From contig JADLHC010000302.1 of the NCBI GenBank assembly GCA_020849035.1, positions 1-33,580 on the forward strand: a stretch of DNA of 33,580 bases, written 5' to 3'. Position 1 is the first letter of the stretch. Every line of letters begins with the position of its first letter. The notes under the pieces are model-generated. The model was not told where the DNA came from and did not search any database. It saw only the letters and a list, made by a program, of their open reading frames with translations. Shown piece by piece: positions 17,439 through 32,890 of the stretch. A program made the translations under genes and the position numbers. This DNA is from Planctomycetia bacterium (GTDB lineage: Bacteria > Planctomycetota > MHYJ01 > WSZJ01).

Positions 17439-17506
17439 ATCCAGCGGCGTTGTGTATTTTCGCGCTGCGGACCCGCCGGAACCCGCAATTTTCCCCCTTG
17501 TCCACC

Positions 17507-17522
17507 CGGCACTTCCCTTGCA
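17507..17522 (+). promoter_or_regulatory. sigma54 -24/-12 promoter of the NtrC-family gene
   Basis: cGGCACttcccTTGCa: exact GG-N10-GC spacing, ATG at 17558. Confidence 0.75.
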
Positions 17523-17557
17523 GAACCGATTCGCCCCCCCCCTTTCACGGTGCGCCC

Positions 17558-18949
<1,392 letters not shown>

Positions 18950-18981
18950 CGCCGTCGGCTCGCGCGGTGGTGAGTCGCGTC

Positions 18982-19827
18982 ATGGACGAATCTCCGCGGA
19001 TGGACGCCTACTCGCCGGCCGAGATGGCGGCGCGGGTGGAAGAGACGGGAGTGAAGAAGGCGGGGCTGGGCGCGGGCCCGACGCTGGCGCTGGCAGTGCT
19101 CGCGGGGGCGTTCATCGGGCTTGGCGCGGCGTTCTCGGTCGTAGCCGCGACAGACACGCGTCTCGGGTACGGCCCGTCGAGACTGCTGACCGGGCTCTCG
19201 TTCTCGCTCGGGCTGATCCTCGTGGTGGTCGCCGGGGCGGAGCTGTTCACGGGAAACGTGCTGCTGGTGATGGCCTGGGCGAGCCGGCGCGTGACGACGG
19301 TGCGGCTGCTCCGGAACTGGGGGCTGGCCTACGCGGGGAACTTCGCCGGGGCCGCGGCCACGGCGGCCGCGATCTACGCCTCCCGACGCTGGACCGACGC
19401 GGACTCGCAGCCGGGAGTGACGGCGCTTCGCATCGCGCTGGCGAAGTGCACGCTGCCCTTCGGCACGGCGTTCGTGCTCGGGGCGCTGTGCAACGCGCTG
19501 GTCTGCCTGGCGGTCTGGCTCTGCTTCAGTGCTCGGACCACCACCGACAAGATTCTCTCGATCCTGTTCCCGATCACGGCGTTCGTTGCGCTCGGCTTCG
19601 AGCACAGCGTGGCGAACATGTACTTCATCCCGCTGGGGATTCTGCTCAGGGGCGAAGCGTCGGTGCTTGCGGCCGGCGGATGGAGCGCGTCGTCGATGAC
19701 GCCGGTCTGCTGGGAGGGTCTGGCGGCGAACCTGGTGCCGGTGACGCTGGGGAACGTTCTGGGCGGGGGGGTGATGGTGGCCGCGATCTACTGGTACGTC
19801 TATCTGCGGCGGCGTGCGTCGGACTGA
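18982..19827 (+). CDS. Formate/nitrite transporter (FocA/NirC, FNT) family channel
   Basis: VVAGAELFTGNVLLVMAW, AKCTLPFGTAFVLGALCNALVCLAVWL, FVALGFEHSVANMYFIPLGILL, NLVPVTLGNVLGGGVMVA are hallmark FNT motifs. Confidence 0.92.
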   Translation: MDESPRMDAYSPAEMAARVEETGVKKAGLGAGPTLALAVLAGAFIGLGAAFSVVAATDTRLGYGPSRLLTGLSFSLGLILVVVAGAELFTGNVLLVMAWASRRVTTVRLLRNWGLAYAGNFAGAAATAAAIYASRRWTDADSQPGVTALRIALAKCTLPFGTAFVLGALCNALVCLAVWLCFSARTTTDKILSILFPITAFVALGFEHSVANMYFIPLGILLRGEASVLAAGGWSASSMTPVCWEGLAANLVPVTLGNVLGGGVMVAAIYWYVYLRRRASD

Positions 19828-19896: not shown

Positions 19897-21105
19897 ATGT
19901 TCCCACTCTCGGACCGAGACGTTCTGGCACGCAAGGCCTTCCTCCATCTCACCGAGGAAGACGAACGCCTCCTGCGCGAGGTCCACTCCCTGCTCTCGCA
20001 GCACGCCGATGCGCTCATCAACCGCTTCTACGAGTACCTGCTCTCCGACGAACGCACGCGCAGAATGCTCGAGGCTCCCGGTCAGGTCGAACGGCTCAAG
20101 GCCCTTCAACGCACCTACTTTCTCCGGCTGACCGCCGGGAATTACGACGCCGCCTACTTCAGCGAGCGGGTCCGCGTTGGCCAGACCCACGAGCGAGTGG
20201 GACTCCCGCCCGAGCTCTACATGGGCGCATATCACCGCTACTACCAGATCGCGACGGAGATCATCCGCGGCGCGTTCCCGCCCGGCGATGCCAGGGCGAA
20301 CCGGACCGTCCAGGCTCTCGGCAAGATCATCACGCTCGACATGAGCCTCGCGATCGACGCCTACATCGACAGCGCGCACTCCAGGCTCCACGCCCGCAAC
20401 GAGGAGCTGATGCGCCTGCAGGCTGCGAAGAATGTCCTGACGAACATGATCATCCACGACCTCCAGAACCCGATCGCGGGCATTCGGGCGTTCCTCGAGC
20501 TGCTCCAGACTCGACAGTCGGGGCTGACGGAGAGCGAGATGGATGCGCTGCATGAAGCGCTGCGCCGGTGCGACGACCTGGGCGAGATGGTCATGAACGT
20601 GCTGCAAGTGAGCCGCGCCGAGGTCGGGTCCCTGGACGTGAACGCGGAGTCGGTGGACCTGGCGGATCTGGCGCGCCGGAGCGTCTCCGCGTTCGCGCTG
20701 CATGCGGGCCAGGCAGGGCGGACGCTCACGGTCGACGCGCCCGGGGAGCTGCCGATCCGGTCCGACCAGTCGCTGCTGAAGCGCATTTTCTACAACCTGA
20801 TCCGGAATGCGCTGCGTCACACGCCGCGGGGCACGCGCGTGGTGGTCCGCGTGGGGTCCGCCGGGGCGGGGAAGGCCGAGATCCTGGTGTCGGACAACGG
20901 GCCGGGGATCCCGCGGGAGGTGCTGCCGCTGCTTTTCCATCAGCACGGCGGGGAGCAGCTGCGCGCCGCCGGGCTCCGCGTCGACACGGGCCTGGGGCTT
21001 TCGTTCTGCCGCTCGGCGGTCAACGCGCTGGGCGGGACGATCGAGGTGGAAAGCGACGGGCGAAGCGGCACGGTGTTCCGCATCCTGCTCGGGAACGCGC
21101 CGTAG
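19897..21105 (+). CDS. Globin-coupled sensor histidine kinase (GCS/protoglobin-HisKA-HATPase)
   Basis: N-terminal about 155 aa with LRLTAGNYDAAYFSERVRVGQTHERVGLPPELYMGAYHRYY (GCS proximal-His motif), then MIIHDLQNPIAGIRAFLELL (H-box), NLIRNALRHTP (N-box), VSDNGPGIPREV, DTGLGLSFCRSAVNALGG (G-boxes). Confidence 0.87.
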   Translation: MFPLSDRDVLARKAFLHLTEEDERLLREVHSLLSQHADALINRFYEYLLSDERTRRMLEAPGQVERLKALQRTYFLRLTAGNYDAAYFSERVRVGQTHERVGLPPELYMGAYHRYYQIATEIIRGAFPPGDARANRTVQALGKIITLDMSLAIDAYIDSAHSRLHARNEELMRLQAAKNVLTNMIIHDLQNPIAGIRAFLELLQTRQSGLTESEMDALHEALRRCDDLGEMVMNVLQVSRAEVGSLDVNAESVDLADLARRSVSAFALHAGQAGRTLTVDAPGELPIRSDQSLLKRIFYNLIRNALRHTPRGTRVVVRVGSAGAGKAEILVSDNGPGIPREVLPLLFHQHGGEQLRAAGLRVDTGLGLSFCRSAVNALGGTIEVESDGRSGTVFRILLGNAP

Positions 21106-23978: not shown

Positions 23979-25595
23979 TCACTCGATCCCGGGGGCGGTC
24001 TTCTCCCCGGGCTTCGCCGGGATTTCGGTCATGGTCGCCTGGGTGAGCAAGAGGATCCCGGCGACGGAGACGGCGTTCTCCAGCGCGACGCGGACGACCT
24101 TGGTGGGATCGATGATCCCGGCTTCGAGGAGATCGACCCACCTCCCGGTTGCCGCATCGAATCCGTGCGCGCCCTTTCCCGACTTCATCCGGTCCACGAC
24201 GACGCCCGGGTCGGCGCCTGAGTTCTCCGCGATCTGCCGCGCCGGCTCCTCCAGGGCGCGGCGCAGGATGCGGACTCCCGTGCGCTCGTCGCCCTCGGCG
24301 GAGGCCTCGATCGGATCCAGCACGAGAACGGCCCGGAGCAGCGCCAGCCCGCCCCCGGGGACGATCCCCTCCGCGACGGCGGCCCGTGTCGAGGAGACCG
24401 CGTCGTCGAACGCCTCCGTGCGGTTCTTCAGCTCCGCCTCGCTCGGCGCGCCGACCCGGATCACCGCCACGCCGCCCGAGAGCTTCGCGAGCCGCTCGCG
24501 CAGCTTCTCCCTGTCGTAGTCGCCGGTCGCCGCCTCGATCTGCCGCCGGAGCTGCCCGATCCGTCCCTGGATGTCCGCCTTCGCCCCTGCCCCGCCCACG
24601 ACCGTCGTCGCCTCCTGCGCCACGACGACCCTCTGCGCCCGCCCCAGCATCTCCGGCTTCGCCTGGTCCAGCTTGACGCCAAGGTCCTCCGAAACGACGC
24701 GCCCCGCCGTCAGGATCGCCAGGTCCTCCAGCATTTCCTTCCGCCGGTCCCCGTAACCCGGCGCCTTCACGGCCGCAACCTGAAGCACCCCGCGGAGCTT
24801 GTTCACGAGAAGCGTCGCCAGCGCGTCGCCATCCACGTCCTCGGCGACGATGAGGAGCGGGCGGGACTGGTGCGCGACCGCCTCGAGAATCGGAACGAGG
24901 TCCGCCGCGTTCCCGATCTTCCGGTCCGTGACGAGGATCATCGGATCCTCCAGCACGGCCTCCATCCTCTCCCGGTCCGTCACGAAATAGGGCGAGATCC
25001 AGCCCCGGTCGAACTGCATCCCCTCCACGACATCGAGCTGCGTCTCGGTCGTCTTCGCCTCCTCCACCGTCACGACCCCCTCGCTTCCCACGCGCTCGAT
25101 CGCCTCCGCCACCACTTTCCCGATCGACTCGTCGTTGTGGGCGGAGACCGTCGCCACCTGCTCCTTCTCCTTCCGGCTTTTCACAGGGCGCGACAGATCC
25201 CTGATCCCTTTCACCGCCGCTGTCATCCCGCGGTCCAGCCCACGCTTCAGGTCCACCGCGCTCGCCCCCGCCGCGACGTTCCGCAGTCCTTCCGCGAGAA
25301 TGCGCCACGCCAGCACCGTCGACGTGCTCGTCCCGTCTCCCACCACGTCTCCCGTCTTCTCCGCCGCCTGCCGGAGCACCTGCGCGCCCAGGGCCTCTTC
25401 CGCATCCTCGAGCTCGAACTCCTTCGCAATCGTCACTCCGTCGTTGCAGACCAGCGGCGTCCCCCACGACTTCGCGATCAGGACGCACTTCGACTTCGGT
25501 CCCAGCGTGAGCCGCACGGCGTCGGCGAGCTTGCCTGCGCCGCGGAGGAGTTTTTCGTGGGCTTCGGGCTGGAAGAGGACGCGTTTCTTCGGCAT
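23979..25595 (-). CDS. groEL: GroEL/Cpn60 chaperonin paralogue without GGM tail
   Basis: LADAVRLTLGPKSKCVLIAKSWGTPLVCNDGVTIAKEFELED, VVGDGTSTSTVLAWRIL, KAPGYGDRRKEMLEDLAILTAG, VAEGIVPGGGLALLRA. C-terminus is EIPAKPGEKTAPGIE. No groES next to it. Confidence 0.92.
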   Translation of the reverse strand: MPKKRVLFQPEAHEKLLRGAGKLADAVRLTLGPKSKCVLIAKSWGTPLVCNDGVTIAKEFELEDAEEALGAQVLRQAAEKTGDVVGDGTSTSTVLAWRILAEGLRNVAAGASAVDLKRGLDRGMTAAVKGIRDLSRPVKSRKEKEQVATVSAHNDESIGKVVAEAIERVGSEGVVTVEEAKTTETQLDVVEGMQFDRGWISPYFVTDRERMEAVLEDPMILVTDRKIGNAADLVPILEAVAHQSRPLLIVAEDVDGDALATLLVNKLRGVLQVAAVKAPGYGDRRKEMLEDLAILTAGRVVSEDLGVKLDQAKPEMLGRAQRVVVAQEATTVVGGAGAKADIQGRIGQLRRQIEAATGDYDREKLRERLAKLSGGVAVIRVGAPSEAELKNRTEAFDDAVSSTRAAVAEGIVPGGGLALLRAVLVLDPIEASAEGDERTGVRILRRALEEPARQIAENSGADPGVVVDRMKSGKGAHGFDAATGRWVDLLEAGIIDPTKVVRVALENAVSVAGILLLTQATMTEIPAKPGEKTAPGIE

Positions 25596-25639
25596 GGGTG
25601 TTCTCCTGGAATGGCGGCGTCCGGACACAGGCAGAGGGG

Positions 25640-25655
25640 TGCCGAAGAGTCGGCA
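25640..25655 (-). promoter_or_regulatory. Inverted repeat TGCCGA-AGAG-TCGGCA in the predicted groEL leader
   Basis: Perfect 6-bp arms with a 4-nt loop, 45 bp upstream of the groEL start codon. Confidence 0.4.
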
Positions 25656-25672
25656 GCCGGGGGGCGAAGGTC

Positions 25673-25687
25673 GCAAAGCGTGCGCCC
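25673..25687 (-). promoter_or_regulatory. sigma54-like promoter of groEL paralogue
   Basis: Minus strand gGGCgCacgctTTGC: GG-N10-GC and TTGC -12 box; long (about 66 nt) leader. Confidence 0.4.
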
Positions 25688-28502: not shown

Positions 28503-28622
28503 GCGTGAGTCCCTCTGGGGCGCCGCCGCCGACTGACGGGATCTGCGGGAATCTCCACGGGACCTGCGCGACCTTGCGCGTTCACCCGTATGCGCGTGAG
28601 CTCACGCCGCCCAACGGCCTGG

Positions 28623-28637
28623 CGGCCCCCGTTTTGC
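28623..28637 (+). promoter_or_regulatory. sigma54-like promoter of the first cupredoxin-like lipoprotein
   Basis: cGGCcCccgttTTGC: GG-N10-GC; SD GGAGG and ATG at 28680 follow. Confidence 0.5.
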
Positions 28638-28679
28638 GCCCCCCCCTCGCCGCTCCCCTTGGCTATCATGGAGGTCTCC

Positions 28680-29441
28680 ATGCGCCGGATAACCCTGCTC
28701 GCCCTCGTCGCCGTTATCGCCGGATGCGGCCAGCCCCCGTCCCTCGGCGGCCCCGCCCCGGCCCCCGGAACCCCCGGCGGCGACGCCCTCTGCGACGGAA
28801 GCCCCGAAGGCGCCGTCATCCGCGGCAAGGTCTCCTTCGAAGGAACGCCCCCCGCCTGCGAGACCCGCGTCGTCGAGGGCGATCCCTTCTGCGTCCAGCT
28901 CCACAAGAACGGCATCGTCTACGAGGACGTGAAGGTCAAGGACGGCGCCCTGGCGAACGTCTTCGTCTGGGTGAAGAAAGGCCTCACGGCCAAGTACCCC
29001 GCTCCCAAAGACCCGAAAGTCCTCACGCAGCGCGACTGCCGCTTCGAACCCCGCGTCTTCGGCATCCAGTCCGGCCAGCCGCTCCTCATCCGCAACGAGG
29101 ACGAAACGATGCACAACGTGCACGCGATCCCGAAACTGAACGACGAGTTCAATTTCGCGCAGACGAAGAAGGGCGACGAGCTCACGAAGAAGTTCACGAC
29201 GGCGGAGGTGATGGTGCGGATCAAGTGCGACGCGCACGGGTGGATGGCCGCCTGGGCCGGCGTCGTGAACCACCCGTTCTACGCAGTGACCGGAGAGGAC
29301 GGGACGTTCGAGCTGAAGGGGCTTCCGCCCGGCGAGTACCTGGTCGCGGCGTGGCACGAGCGGTTCGGGCTGAGGGACCAGACGGTGAAGATCGGCGAGA
29401 AGGAGACGAAGACGGCGGACTTCACGTACAAGGCCGAGTAG
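28680..29441 (+). CDS. Cupredoxin-like lipoprotein (carboxypeptidase-regulatory-like C-terminus), paralogue 1
   Basis: Lipobox VIAGC (MRRITLLALVAVIAGCGQ); MHNVHAIP and IKCDAHGWMAAW candidate copper ligands; GEDGTFELKGLPPGEYLVAAWHE domain. Confidence 0.75.
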   Translation: MRRITLLALVAVIAGCGQPPSLGGPAPAPGTPGGDALCDGSPEGAVIRGKVSFEGTPPACETRVVEGDPFCVQLHKNGIVYEDVKVKDGALANVFVWVKKGLTAKYPAPKDPKVLTQRDCRFEPRVFGIQSGQPLLIRNEDETMHNVHAIPKLNDEFNFAQTKKGDELTKKFTTAEVMVRIKCDAHGWMAAWAGVVNHPFYAVTGEDGTFELKGLPPGEYLVAAWHERFGLRDQTVKIGEKETKTADFTYKAE

Positions 29442-29547
29442 GCCGCGCCCTCCCCGATCCCCGCGCCCCGTGGTAATCTCGCGGCCCTGCCGCGCCCCCC
29501 GGGGCGCCGTCGTTTCCAGGTGTTCCCTCTCGAGGAGGACCGTACGC

Positions 29548-30336
29548 ATGCTTCGTTTCGCCACGCCCGCCGTCCTGGCCGTCGTTTCCATCCTCTGCGC
29601 CGGTTGCGGGGACAGCAAGAAGGGCGGGGGGCCGACGGGCGGGACCGGGAAGGACTCCGAGCCCGCGCCGGCGGGACCGGCGAAGAAGGCCGACCTCGAG
29701 AACGGGGCGATCGTGAAGGGCGTGATCCGGTTCGAGGGGACGCCGCCGCAGGACAAGGCGCTTCAGATCGACGGCGACGACTTCTGCCGCAAGCAGCACG
29801 GCGAGGGGATGAAGTCGGAGTACTACCTGGTGAAGGACGGGAAGGTCGCGAACTGTCTCGTCTACATCAAGGACGGGCTGCAGGGGCGGTATGAGGCGAT
29901 CGCCGGGAACCCCGAGCTTGACCAGAAAGGCTGCCGGTACGATCCCCACGTCCTCGGGATGGTGGCGGGGCAGGCGCTGCTGATCAAGAGCAGCGACGCG
30001 ACCGGCCACAACGTGCATGCGATCCCGAAGAAGAACGACGAATTCAACATCATGCTCACGAAGGCGGGGGACCAGATCACCCACGCTTTCCGGAGCGCGG
30101 AGATCGTGCCCTTCAAGTGCGACATCCACAACTGGATGAGCGCGTGGGTGGGCGTGTTCAACCATCCGTTCTTTGCCGTGACCGGCGAGGACGGCGCGTT
30201 CGAGATCAGGGGCATCCCGCCGGGGAAGTACACGCTCGAGGTCTGGCACGAGAAGTTCAGGGTGCAGCGGGTCGAGGTGGAGGTGAAGGAGAAGGAGACG
30301 AAGTCGGTCGAGTTCCCCGCGTACAAGGCCGAGTAG
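29548..30336 (+). CDS. Cupredoxin-like lipoprotein, paralogue 2
   Basis: Lipobox ILCAGC; GHNVHAIPKKNDEFN and FKCDIHNWMSAWVGVFNHPFFAVTGEDGAFEIRGIPPGKYTLEVWHEKF, colinear with the preceding gene. Confidence 0.75.
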   Translation: MLRFATPAVLAVVSILCAGCGDSKKGGGPTGGTGKDSEPAPAGPAKKADLENGAIVKGVIRFEGTPPQDKALQIDGDDFCRKQHGEGMKSEYYLVKDGKVANCLVYIKDGLQGRYEAIAGNPELDQKGCRYDPHVLGMVAGQALLIKSSDATGHNVHAIPKKNDEFNIMLTKAGDQITHAFRSAEIVPFKCDIHNWMSAWVGVFNHPFFAVTGEDGAFEIRGIPPGKYTLEVWHEKFRVQRVEVEVKEKETKSVEFPAYKAE

Positions 30337-30351: not shown

Positions 30352-31188
30352 ATGCGCCGGGGCGAGAGGGGGGCGGCGGGCGGCCTGGTGCTGGCGCTGT
30401 TCCTCGCGGCGATCGCCGTGGCGGTCGTGGCGCTGTGGTTCTGGCGCGGCTGGCTTCCGCCGCAGGCGAGCGAGCAGGCGCGCGGCGTGGACCGCGTGAT
30501 CTCGTACATCGCGGCGGCCGCAGGGCTGATCCTCGTCGGCGGGCATTTCGTCCTCGCGCGATTCGTCCTGGCGTCGCGCCGCGAAGGCGGCCCCGCGTAC
30601 CGGCCGGCGGGAAGGCGCGCGGAACTGCTGCTCTCGGTGATCCCGGTGGCGGTCATGGTCGCGGTGACGGAGGTCGGCACGATGGTGCTGGGGGCGCCGG
30701 TGTGGAAGGACGTGCACACGCGGCAGCCGGGGGACCTCGAGGTGGAGATCACCGGGATGCAGTACGAGTGGCTCGCCCGCTATCCCGGCGGGGACGGGCA
30801 GTGGGGGAGGCGCGACATCGAGGAGTTCGACGGCGCCATCAATCCGCTCGCGCTCGATCCGCGGGACCGCGCGGGAAAGGACGACATCGTCTCCCGCGGC
30901 GTGATCGTGCTGCCGGCGGGACGCGGGGTCTGGTTCAGCATCCGGTCGTGGGACGTCCTGCACGGCTTCAACGTCCCCGCCTTCCGCCTCAAACAGGACG
31001 CCGTGCCCGGCATGGTGACGCACCTGCGGCTGGTCCCGTCCGCCCCCACGCCGCCCGGCGCGCCGCTCGAAGTCGCCTGCGCCGAACTCTGCAGTTCCGG
31101 GCACTACCGCATGAAGGCGAAGGTGATCGTCCTGTCGCCGGAGGATTACGCGAAGTGGCTCGAGACGGCTCCCCGGTTCGGCGATTAG
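30352..31188 (+). CDS. coxB: Cytochrome c oxidase subunit II (CuA)
   Basis: Two N-terminal TM segments; EITGMQYEW; DVLHGFNVPAFRLKQDAVPG; CuA motif CAELCSSGHYRM (Cx3Cx3Hx2M). No CxxCH heme c site. Confidence 0.92.
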   Translation: MRRGERGAAGGLVLALFLAAIAVAVVALWFWRGWLPPQASEQARGVDRVISYIAAAAGLILVGGHFVLARFVLASRREGGPAYRPAGRRAELLLSVIPVAVMVAVTEVGTMVLGAPVWKDVHTRQPGDLEVEITGMQYEWLARYPGGDGQWGRRDIEEFDGAINPLALDPRDRAGKDDIVSRGVIVLPAGRGVWFSIRSWDVLHGFNVPAFRLKQDAVPGMVTHLRLVPSAPTPPGAPLEVACAELCSSGHYRMKAKVIVLSPEDYAKWLETAPRFGD

Positions 31189-31198
31189 GAGCAGTCGC

Positions 31199-32890
31199 GT
31201 GAGCGCCGACGCCGGGCCCCGCGGGTTTCTCCGCCGCTTCGTGTTCTGCTCCGACCACAAGGCGATCGGCGTGCAGTACCTCGTGCTGGCGATGGCGATG
31301 AGCGTGGTCGGTGTCGGGCTGTCGTTCTGGTTCCGCGCGCAGCTGGCATGGCCGGGGGCGCAGATCATGACGCCGGAGCAGTACGTGATGGCGGTGACGA
31401 TGCACGGCACGATCATGATCTTCTTCGTCGTGTCGGCGGCGCTCTGGAGCGGGCTGGGAAGCCTCGTCGTGCCGCTGCAGGTCGGCGCGCGCGGCATGGC
31501 GTTTCCCGTGCTGGGGCCGGTCGGCTTCTGGACGAACGTCGCGGGCGCCGCGGTGATGGTCGCGTCGTTCTTCGTCGAGGGCGGCGCCTCCGCCGGGGGA
31601 TGGACCGCCTATCCGCCGCTGAGCGCGCTCCGCAACTCCGGCGCGGGCGCGCTCTGGGGCACAACACTGTGGATCCTCGGCATGGCGCTGTTCATCGTCT
31701 CGTTCACGATGGGCGCCCTCAACGTCGTCGCCACCGTCCTCAACGGGCGAACGCGCGGGCTCACCCTCATGCGGCTGCCGCTGGCGACCTGGACCTGGCT
31801 CGTCTCCGCCGTGCTCGGCCTGTTCAGCTTCCCGGCCCTCACCGCCGCGGCGATCCTCCTCCTGCTCGACCGCCACGCCGGCACGTCCTTCTTCCTGCCC
31901 TCCGGACTCCTCGTCAGCGGCCGGCCGATGCCCAACGCCGGCGGCGCGCCGCTCCTCTTCCAGCACCTCTTCTGGTTCCTTGGTCACCCCGAGGTCTACG
32001 TCCTCGTCCTCCCAGCGGTCGGCATCGCCTTCGACGTCCTCGCCGCCTTCGGGCGCCGCCCCGTCCACGGGTACCGCACCACCGTGTGGGCCCTCCTCGC
32101 CATCGCCCTCCTCGGCATGCTCGTCTGGGGCCACCACATGTTCGTCTCCGGCATGAACCCCTTCCTCGGAACCGCCTTCTCCGTCACCACCCTCCTCATC
32201 ACCGCGCCGTTCGCCCTGCTCGGCGTCAACCTCCTCGCCTCCCTCTGGCGCAGCCGCATCCGCTTCTCCACCCCCATGATGTTCGCCCTCGCCCTCATCT
32301 CCGCCGTCGGCGCCGGCGGCGTCGGCGGGCTCTTCCTCGCCACCTCCGCGGCAAACCTCCACCTCCACGACACCTACTTCGTCGTCGGGCACTTCCACCT
32401 CATGATCGGCGTCGTCACCCTCATGGGCACCTTCGCCGGCGTCTACTACTGGTTCCCCAAAATGTTCGGCCGCACCATGAACGAAACGCTCGGCCGCATC
32501 CATTTCTGGCCCACCGTCTCAGGCGCATTCGCCGTCTTCGTCCTCCACCACTTCCAGGGCCTCGGCGGCCTCACCCGCCGCTACTACGAGCACACCCAGG
32601 ACGTCTTCCAGGGCCCCGCCTCCCTCCACCCCGCCGTCACCCTCCTCGCCTACGTCGCCGGCGCCGCCCAGCTCGTCTTCCTCGTCAACTTCGCCTGGAG
32701 CGCCTTCGCGGGGCCGAAGGCGGGGGGGAATCCGTGGGAAGCGACGACGCTGGAGTGGACGACGGCGTCGCCGCCGGGGCGGGGGAACTGGGAGGGGGAG
32801 CTGCCGGAGGTGGTCGGGGAGCCGTACGGGTACGCGGAGGGGCCGGACGGCACGGGGTTCCGCATGCAGAACGCGGAGGGCGGGCGATGA
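31199..32890 (+). CDS. coxA: Heme-copper oxidase subunit I with non-canonical proton-channel positions
   Basis: FCSDHKAIGVQYLVLAMAMS, TMHGTIMIFF, WTAYPPLS, FWFLGHPEVYVLVLP, VWGHHMFVSGMNP, HDTYFVVGHFHLMIG, YYWFPKMFGR. GTG start. Confidence 0.93.
   Translation: MSADAGPRGFLRRFVFCSDHKAIGVQYLVLAMAMSVVGVGLSFWFRAQLAWPGAQIMTPEQYVMAVTMHGTIMIFFVVSAALWSGLGSLVVPLQVGARGMAFPVLGPVGFWTNVAGAAVMVASFFVEGGASAGGWTAYPPLSALRNSGAGALWGTTLWILGMALFIVSFTMGALNVVATVLNGRTRGLTLMRLPLATWTWLVSAVLGLFSFPALTAAAILLLLDRHAGTSFFLPSGLLVSGRPMPNAGGAPLLFQHLFWFLGHPEVYVLVLPAVGIAFDVLAAFGRRPVHGYRTTVWALLAIALLGMLVWGHHMFVSGMNPFLGTAFSVTTLLITAPFALLGVNLLASLWRSRIRFSTPMMFALALISAVGAGGVGGLFLATSAANLHLHDTYFVVGHFHLMIGVVTLMGTFAGVYYWFPKMFGRTMNETLGRIHFWPTVSGAFAVFVLHHFQGLGGLTRRYYEHTQDVFQGPASLHPAVTLLAYVAGAAQLVFLVNFAWSAFAGPKAGGNPWEATTLEWTTASPPGRGNWEGELPEVVGEPYGYAEGPDGTGFRMQNAEGGR

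Follow-up and report, generated by a model that had tools for sequence, protein, structure and literature searches.

A family-A heme-copper oxidase subunit I that keeps its catalytic residues, belongs to a K-channel-less clade, and has lost the residues of the D-channel mouth

Gene content of the locus

The window (the whole stretch of DNA analyzed, 33,580 nucleotides in length) carries an oxidase operon close to its end. The following genes were assigned to it:

28590-29441, forward strand: second copy of the lipoprotein family described in the next line
29470-30336, forward strand: predicted lipoprotein with cupredoxin-like ligands (HN..H, CD.H..M) and a CarboxypepD_reg-like C-terminal domain
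30352-31188, forward strand: CoxII, with an intact CuA motif, CAELCSSGHYRM
31199-32890, forward strand: CoxI (heme-copper subunit I), with a GTG start, 563 aa, and 12 predicted transmembrane helices
32887-33423, forward strand: short CoxIII-like subunit, the start of which lies inside the CoxI stop codon

In most relatives, the cupredoxin lipoprotein gene comes first and is followed by CoxII, CoxI, a pair of CoxIII-like genes, and a CoxIV-like gene. The second CoxIII and the CoxIV were not seen in the window because the contig ends soon after 33423. The lipoprotein family is located upstream of CoxII in most relatives, and its tandem copies in the window were matched by no NCBIfam model. Judging from its position and ligands, the lipoprotein is a candidate electron donor to CuA.

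Two-component regulators and universal stress proteins are encoded farther upstream. A protoglobin-histidine kinase (19897-21105) adjoins a formate/nitrite-family transporter (18967-19827) and an NtrC-like regulator (17450-18949), and this block is partly syntenic in relatives. Between universal stress protein genes, a Cpn60-family protein is encoded (23979-25676; only 233 bits to Pfam Cpn60) that could be a divergent second chaperonin. Four of the 15 relatives' loci (L034, L145, L152, and L154) carry NarG or related molybdopterin genes near the operon.

The genome is a draft assembly of 349 contigs. It also encodes a canonical A2-type oxidase with D- and K-channel residues and a qNOR; a search of the draft genome for NirK returned no match. 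PF07596, used as a marker of the phylum, was matched by two weak hits only. At locus L153 (genome G035), a K-less oxidase operon is situated less than 10 kb from a canonical A2-type oxidase operon. The molybdopterin oxidoreductase at G000:C238:6085-7368 (L224) spans one in-frame TGA and is possibly a selenocysteine formate dehydrogenase.

Identity, predicted fold, and catalytic core of subunit I

The translated open reading frame at 31199-32890 contains TMHGT, GARGMAFP, VLGPVGFW, GHPEVY, VGIAFD, GHHMF, APFALLGVNLL, and VVGHFH; all of the motifs read by eye in the earlier note were thus correct in the exact translation. The protein was matched by PF00115 (Pfam COX1) with E = 3e-122, and TIGR02891 (NCBIfam CtaD) scored it at 539 bits, under the curated cut-off of 671. 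When solved structures were searched with phmmer, the top match was an actinobacterial aa3 oxidase (1e-112), and the B-type ba3 enzyme was matched at about 1e-8. The AlphaFold model had a mean pLDDT of 80 and featured 12 long helices (confidence was low at 260-264 and 311-319, where some of the metal ligands fall). A-family oxidases matched this predicted fold at TM 0.83-0.86 with 34-38% identity, and in the tree the protein was nested among A-type sequences. By sequence, tree, and predicted fold, the window CoxI is a member of family A.

Residue numbers are those of Paracoccus unless marked "win", which denotes the numbering of the window CoxI. Aligned with the other A-type subunits (127 sequences in all), the window protein keeps H94, H276, H325, H326, H411, and H413, as well as Y280, E278, R473, and R474. 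The six metal-ligand His, the active-site Tyr, and the Glu of HPEVY that had been noticed earlier are therefore present, the latter two at:

31991-31999, forward strand: E265 (win; E278) and Y267 (win; Y280, the cross-link Tyr), both kept in HPEVY

Of the features by which A-type enzymes are defined in PMC3084760, the six His and Tyr-I of HPEVY in helix VI were found; the protein departs from that definition in both of its sets of channel residues. At the positions where B-type enzymes have Thr, Ser, and Tyr in place of the K-channel residues, the window protein has L, F, and F.

K-channel residues

None of the K-channel residues listed in PMC3084760 (K354, T351, S291) is present in the window protein, which carries S291F, T351F, and K354L. 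The loss of the K-channel Ser (in VGIAFD) and of the Thr and Lys (in APFALLGVNLL) had been reported in the earlier note. The relevant codons are:

32030-32032, forward strand: F278 (win), S291 replaced by Phe, common to most of the clade described below
32201-32203, forward strand: T335 (win), equivalent to A348; Ser or Thr here is typical of K-less enzymes
32210-32221, forward strand: F338 (win; T351) and L341 (win; K354), the K-channel Thr and Lys replaced across the clade, with a varying replacing residue

K354 and T351 are likewise missing from relatives at 54-73% identity, almost all of which carry Phe for S291. In the 127-sequence tree, the window's clade comprised 16 rows and had an SH-aLRT support of 100. 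After three Gemmatimonadota loci and ten loci from an Acidobacteria-named phylum were included, the 29 rows formed a single clade (support 100/99) that spans these two phyla and that of the window. The members other than the window come from 14 genomes of its phylum, from Gemmatimonadales UBA7889 and relatives, and from genomes of the Acidobacteria-named phylum. Using thresholds placed at a score gap, clade-level matches were obtained in 15 of the 393 genomes sampled from the window's phylum (that of the window included), 4 of 300 Gemmatimonadota genomes, and 14 of 297 genomes of the Acidobacteria-named phylum.

K354 is absent from 36 of the 127 A-type sequences. The tree requires five changes, at least four of which are forced by starred branches; K-loss has arisen elsewhere too, with four to five changes on the tree. 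K354-less A-type lineages beyond the window's clade, with different replacements, include L013, L033, L017, L019, L022, L061, L132, L187, L188, and others. K-bearing A-type oxidases carry Ala or Gly at position 348; Ser or Thr was found there in 48 of 49 K-less sequences, compared to 2 of 91 K-bearing ones. When independent pairs were considered, three of four pointed in the same direction (too few for significance), so that an association between K-loss and Ser/Thr348 across independent lineages is suggestive only.

D-channel residues

Five further substitutions were found in the window protein:

31460-31462, forward strand: S88 (win), N113 of the asparagine gate replaced by Ser (AGC)
31493-31495, forward strand: G99 (win), D124 of the D-channel entry replaced by Gly (GGC)
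31514-31516, forward strand: G106 (win), N131 of the asparagine gate replaced by Gly (GGG)
31523-31525, forward strand: G109 (win), S134 replaced by Gly (GGC)
32354-32356, forward strand: N386 (win), D399 (Rhodobacter D407) replaced by Asn

The asparagine gate consists of N113 and N131 (Rhodobacter N121 and N139; PMC10341450), and D399 (Rhodobacter D407) is listed among the residues of a water cluster above the hemes (numbering table of PMC12901375). N113S, D124G, N131G, S134G, and D399N are confined to the window; all 28 of the other clade members keep all five residues. The D-channel entry is accordingly retained in 28 of the 29 members, the window being the exception. At the D124 position, Asp is found in 125 of the 126 other A-type sequences and Glu in the remaining one. 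Among the 61 columns that are at least 97% conserved in those 126 sequences, the window deviates at N113, D124, N131, and D399 only, and this deviation at near-invariant columns is more than chance.

Of the D-channel residues listed in PMC3084760 (D124, N113, N131, S134, N199, Y35, S193, and E278), only Y35, N199, and E278 are retained; S193F is common to the clade. Thirteen of the 184 positions that are invariant in 15 relatives were changed in the window. None of the ten catalytic residues is among them, and four of the eight listed D-channel residues are (hypergeometric P = 9e-4, a value that serves only as a guide, because the test was framed once the pattern had been noticed and win sites 106-109 lie next to each other). 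As the codons differ by one or two bases each in an uninterrupted frame, a single sequencing error does not account for them.

The change of Asp to Gly in GARGMAFP and the lost Asn region (VLGPVGFW) had also been reported in the earlier note, and D124G and N131G were borne out by the alignment. That note had treated the two channel losses as one pattern. The losses are real, but they do not share a history: K-loss is of long standing in a multi-phylum clade that bears the D-channel, and D-loss is recent and unique.

It had been considered that equivalents of the missing Asp and Lys might be supplied from shifted positions. No gain of Asp, Glu, or Lys was found in any predicted transmembrane helix of the window CoxI. 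The polar gains in its helices are N113 (win; helix III) and a few Ser, Thr, His, and Tyr residues; N113 (win) is the only one near the lost asparagine gate.

Evolutionary tempo

The nearest relative of the window gene is L005 (the same gene as in L144), and outgroups were taken from the same genus. Unique changes in the window lineage versus its sister numbered 71-75 vs. 35-40 in CoxI, 54-57 vs. 19-23 in CoxII, and 44-45 vs. 17-26 in the short CoxIII. The excess shrank to 54 vs. 37 in CoxI and 37 vs. 29 in CoxII when the outgroups were more distant. The neighboring genes of the syntenic block were mostly even (e.g. 41 vs. 37, 52 vs. 45, 26 vs. 25, and 29 vs. 24). A fast neighborhood as a whole was rejected as the cause: both histidine kinases, the MobB-like gene, two of three Usp genes, and both cupredoxin genes were not significantly faster than in the sister, with one Usp gene (21 vs. 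9) as the exception. Because the oxidase subunits are about twofold faster and most neighbors are even, the change is centered on the oxidase complex. The pairwise dN/dS was about 0.3-0.5. Both a relaxation of constraint and an altered function would fit the excess.

Interpretation

The D-channel of A-family enzymes is credited with every pumped proton and with two or three of the chemical protons, and the K-channel with the rest (PMC8079940). An Asn mutant at the D-channel entry blocks proton movement, gate-Asn mutants to D, T, or S reduce O2 without pumping, and K319M gives complete inhibition (all PMC12901375). Given that both residue sets are gone, proton pumping by the window complex is unlikely. 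The description "non-pumping or re-routed oxidase" offered in the earlier note still covers the best reading, with its first half ahead and its second behind: an active O2 reductase that does not pump protons is given about an even chance. An intact core, an intact CuA subunit and operon, the clade-wide K-loss, the lack of any gained acid or Lys in the helices, a dN/dS below 1, and the A2-type oxidase of the genome speak for it. Against it, classical single-channel mutants are mostly inactive, the D-loss is known from one sequence only, and the ca. twofold tempo relative to the sister also fits relaxed constraint.

On this non-pumping reading, the ancestor would have belonged to an A-family clade that had lost the K-channel and kept the D-channel and the active-site Tyr. 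The window lineage would then have dismantled the D-channel mouth, with the entry Asp, both gate Asn, and S134 changed to Gly or Ser, and the Asp on the heme-propionate side would have become Asn. The enzyme would be a cytochrome c/cupredoxin:O2 oxidoreductase in which electrons pass from a periplasmic donor to CuA, heme a, and the heme a3-CuB site, where O2 is reduced without proton pumping. Chemical protons might reach E265 (win; E278) by way of water in a hydrated D cavity poor in side chains; alternatively, they might be taken up from the outside, as in cNOR. The role of the complex would be that of a second, low-yield oxidase alongside the canonical A2-type oxidase. A more specific proposal, namely an active, non-electrogenic, channel-less A-family O2 reductase that takes protons from the outside like cNOR, keeps the His-Tyr/CuB chemistry, and was reached in two steps from a D-channel-only clade, is tentative, and we consider it unlikely.

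The presence of an A2-type oxidase with both channels means that the window complex need not carry respiration alone, and it also makes decay a serious rival. Selection could have been relaxed beside the canonical enzyme, leaving an inactive or nearly inactive oxidase; this is the main alternative, somewhat doubtful in our estimation. The tempo of CoxI, CoxII, and CoxIIIa, with roughly double the number of unique changes seen in the sister copy and no such excess in most neighboring genes, is in its favor, and a GC-rich drift (70% in the window vs. 66-68%) fits changes of Asn, Asp, and Ser to Gly or Ser. However, the three consecutive open reading frames are intact, every catalytic ligand and the CuA motif are kept, dN/dS is below 1, and those of the most conserved sites that were lost are proton-path positions. 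An artefact of assembly or sequencing could be suspected in a draft of 349 contigs, with a contig end just past the operon, yet the substitutions are in frame, spread over three genes, and accompanied by no frameshift; this explanation is extremely improbable.

Two other explanations were weighed. A re-routed path from the N-side (e.g. the proposed H-pathway, or a water path through S84, T170, N113, and T335, all win) might feed chemical protons and possibly pumped ones as well. The polar residues specific to the clade (S79, S84, T170, and T335, win), the N113 (win) gained in the window, the recurrence of Ser/Thr348 in K-less lineages, and the proposal that the H-pathway is conserved in families A, B, and C (PMC12901375) are consistent with such a path. 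It is nonetheless distinctly unlikely: no helix gained Asp, Glu, or Lys, F278, F338, and L341 (win) fill the former K path, and the role of the H-pathway is under debate. Very unlikely is a chief function as an NO reductase or NO-detoxifying enzyme of nitrate respirers. The NarG-type neighbors noted above, the protoglobin kinase and the transporter of the formate/nitrite family that the window encodes upstream, and the lack of proton channels in cNOR and qNOR might suggest it, but those neighbors occur in a minority of the relatives' loci, the Tyr and six His are kept, the genome has its own qNOR and no NirK match, and the HPEVQ motif of eNOR was absent from 393 genomes of the phylum.

Comparison with known systems

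Compared to A1-type cytochrome c oxidases (Paracoccus, Rhodobacter, and mycobacterial aa3), the window enzyme has the same fold, metal ligands, Tyr280, Glu278, and CuA subunit II. It differs from them in lacking the K-channel Ser, Thr, and Lys as well as D124, N131, N113, and S134, and in carrying D399N. With the K-less, D-bearing clade it shares the lost K-channel residues, T335 (win), the operon order where seen, and the 54-73% identity; unlike the window, all of the others keep D124, N131, N113, S134, and D399. Taken on its sequence, the window protein is a member of this clade that additionally lost the D-channel mouth. The openly accessible literature, of which coverage was incomplete, yielded no prior description of the clade or of an enzyme that combines an intact core with the loss of both channels; the possibility raised earlier, that a family with this exact channel pattern had already been described, thus found no support there. 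K-channel loss in family A has been reported for archaea (PMC8239418), and the window enzyme resembles those oxidases, as described there, in having lost the K-channel independently.

Like eNOR, sNOR, and CuA-NOR (PMC8756737), the window complex is HCO-derived, has a cupredoxin-type subunit II, and is reduced in channel number. Those enzymes have Gln (eNOR) or Asn (sNOR and CuA-NOR) at the Tyr position, whereas the window keeps Tyr. The statement in the earlier note that channel-less NO reductases generally lack the Tyr of HPEVY holds, as NOR types carry Q, N, D, or E there (PMC8756737, Table A4). A relationship to eNOR was rejected, since the exact HPEVQ-context pattern was present in 0 of 393 genomes of the window's phylum and the window has Tyr.

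The positions altered are also those of decoupled or blocked D-pathway mutants (bovine N98D/T/S and D91N; PMC12901375). The mutants are single laboratory changes with the K-channel intact; the changes in the window are natural and multiple, and the K-channel is gone. In the accepted view, the reductive phase depends on the K-channel, and laboratory enzymes are blocked by K319M. The K-less clade, which bears the D-channel and the Tyr, has hydrophobic residues in place of the K-channel, and recurrently carries Ser/Thr348, offers natural enzymes for the question of Tyr protonation. The window protein, which lacks the D-channel mouth too, is a natural candidate for an enzyme that performs the oxygen chemistry and does not pump.
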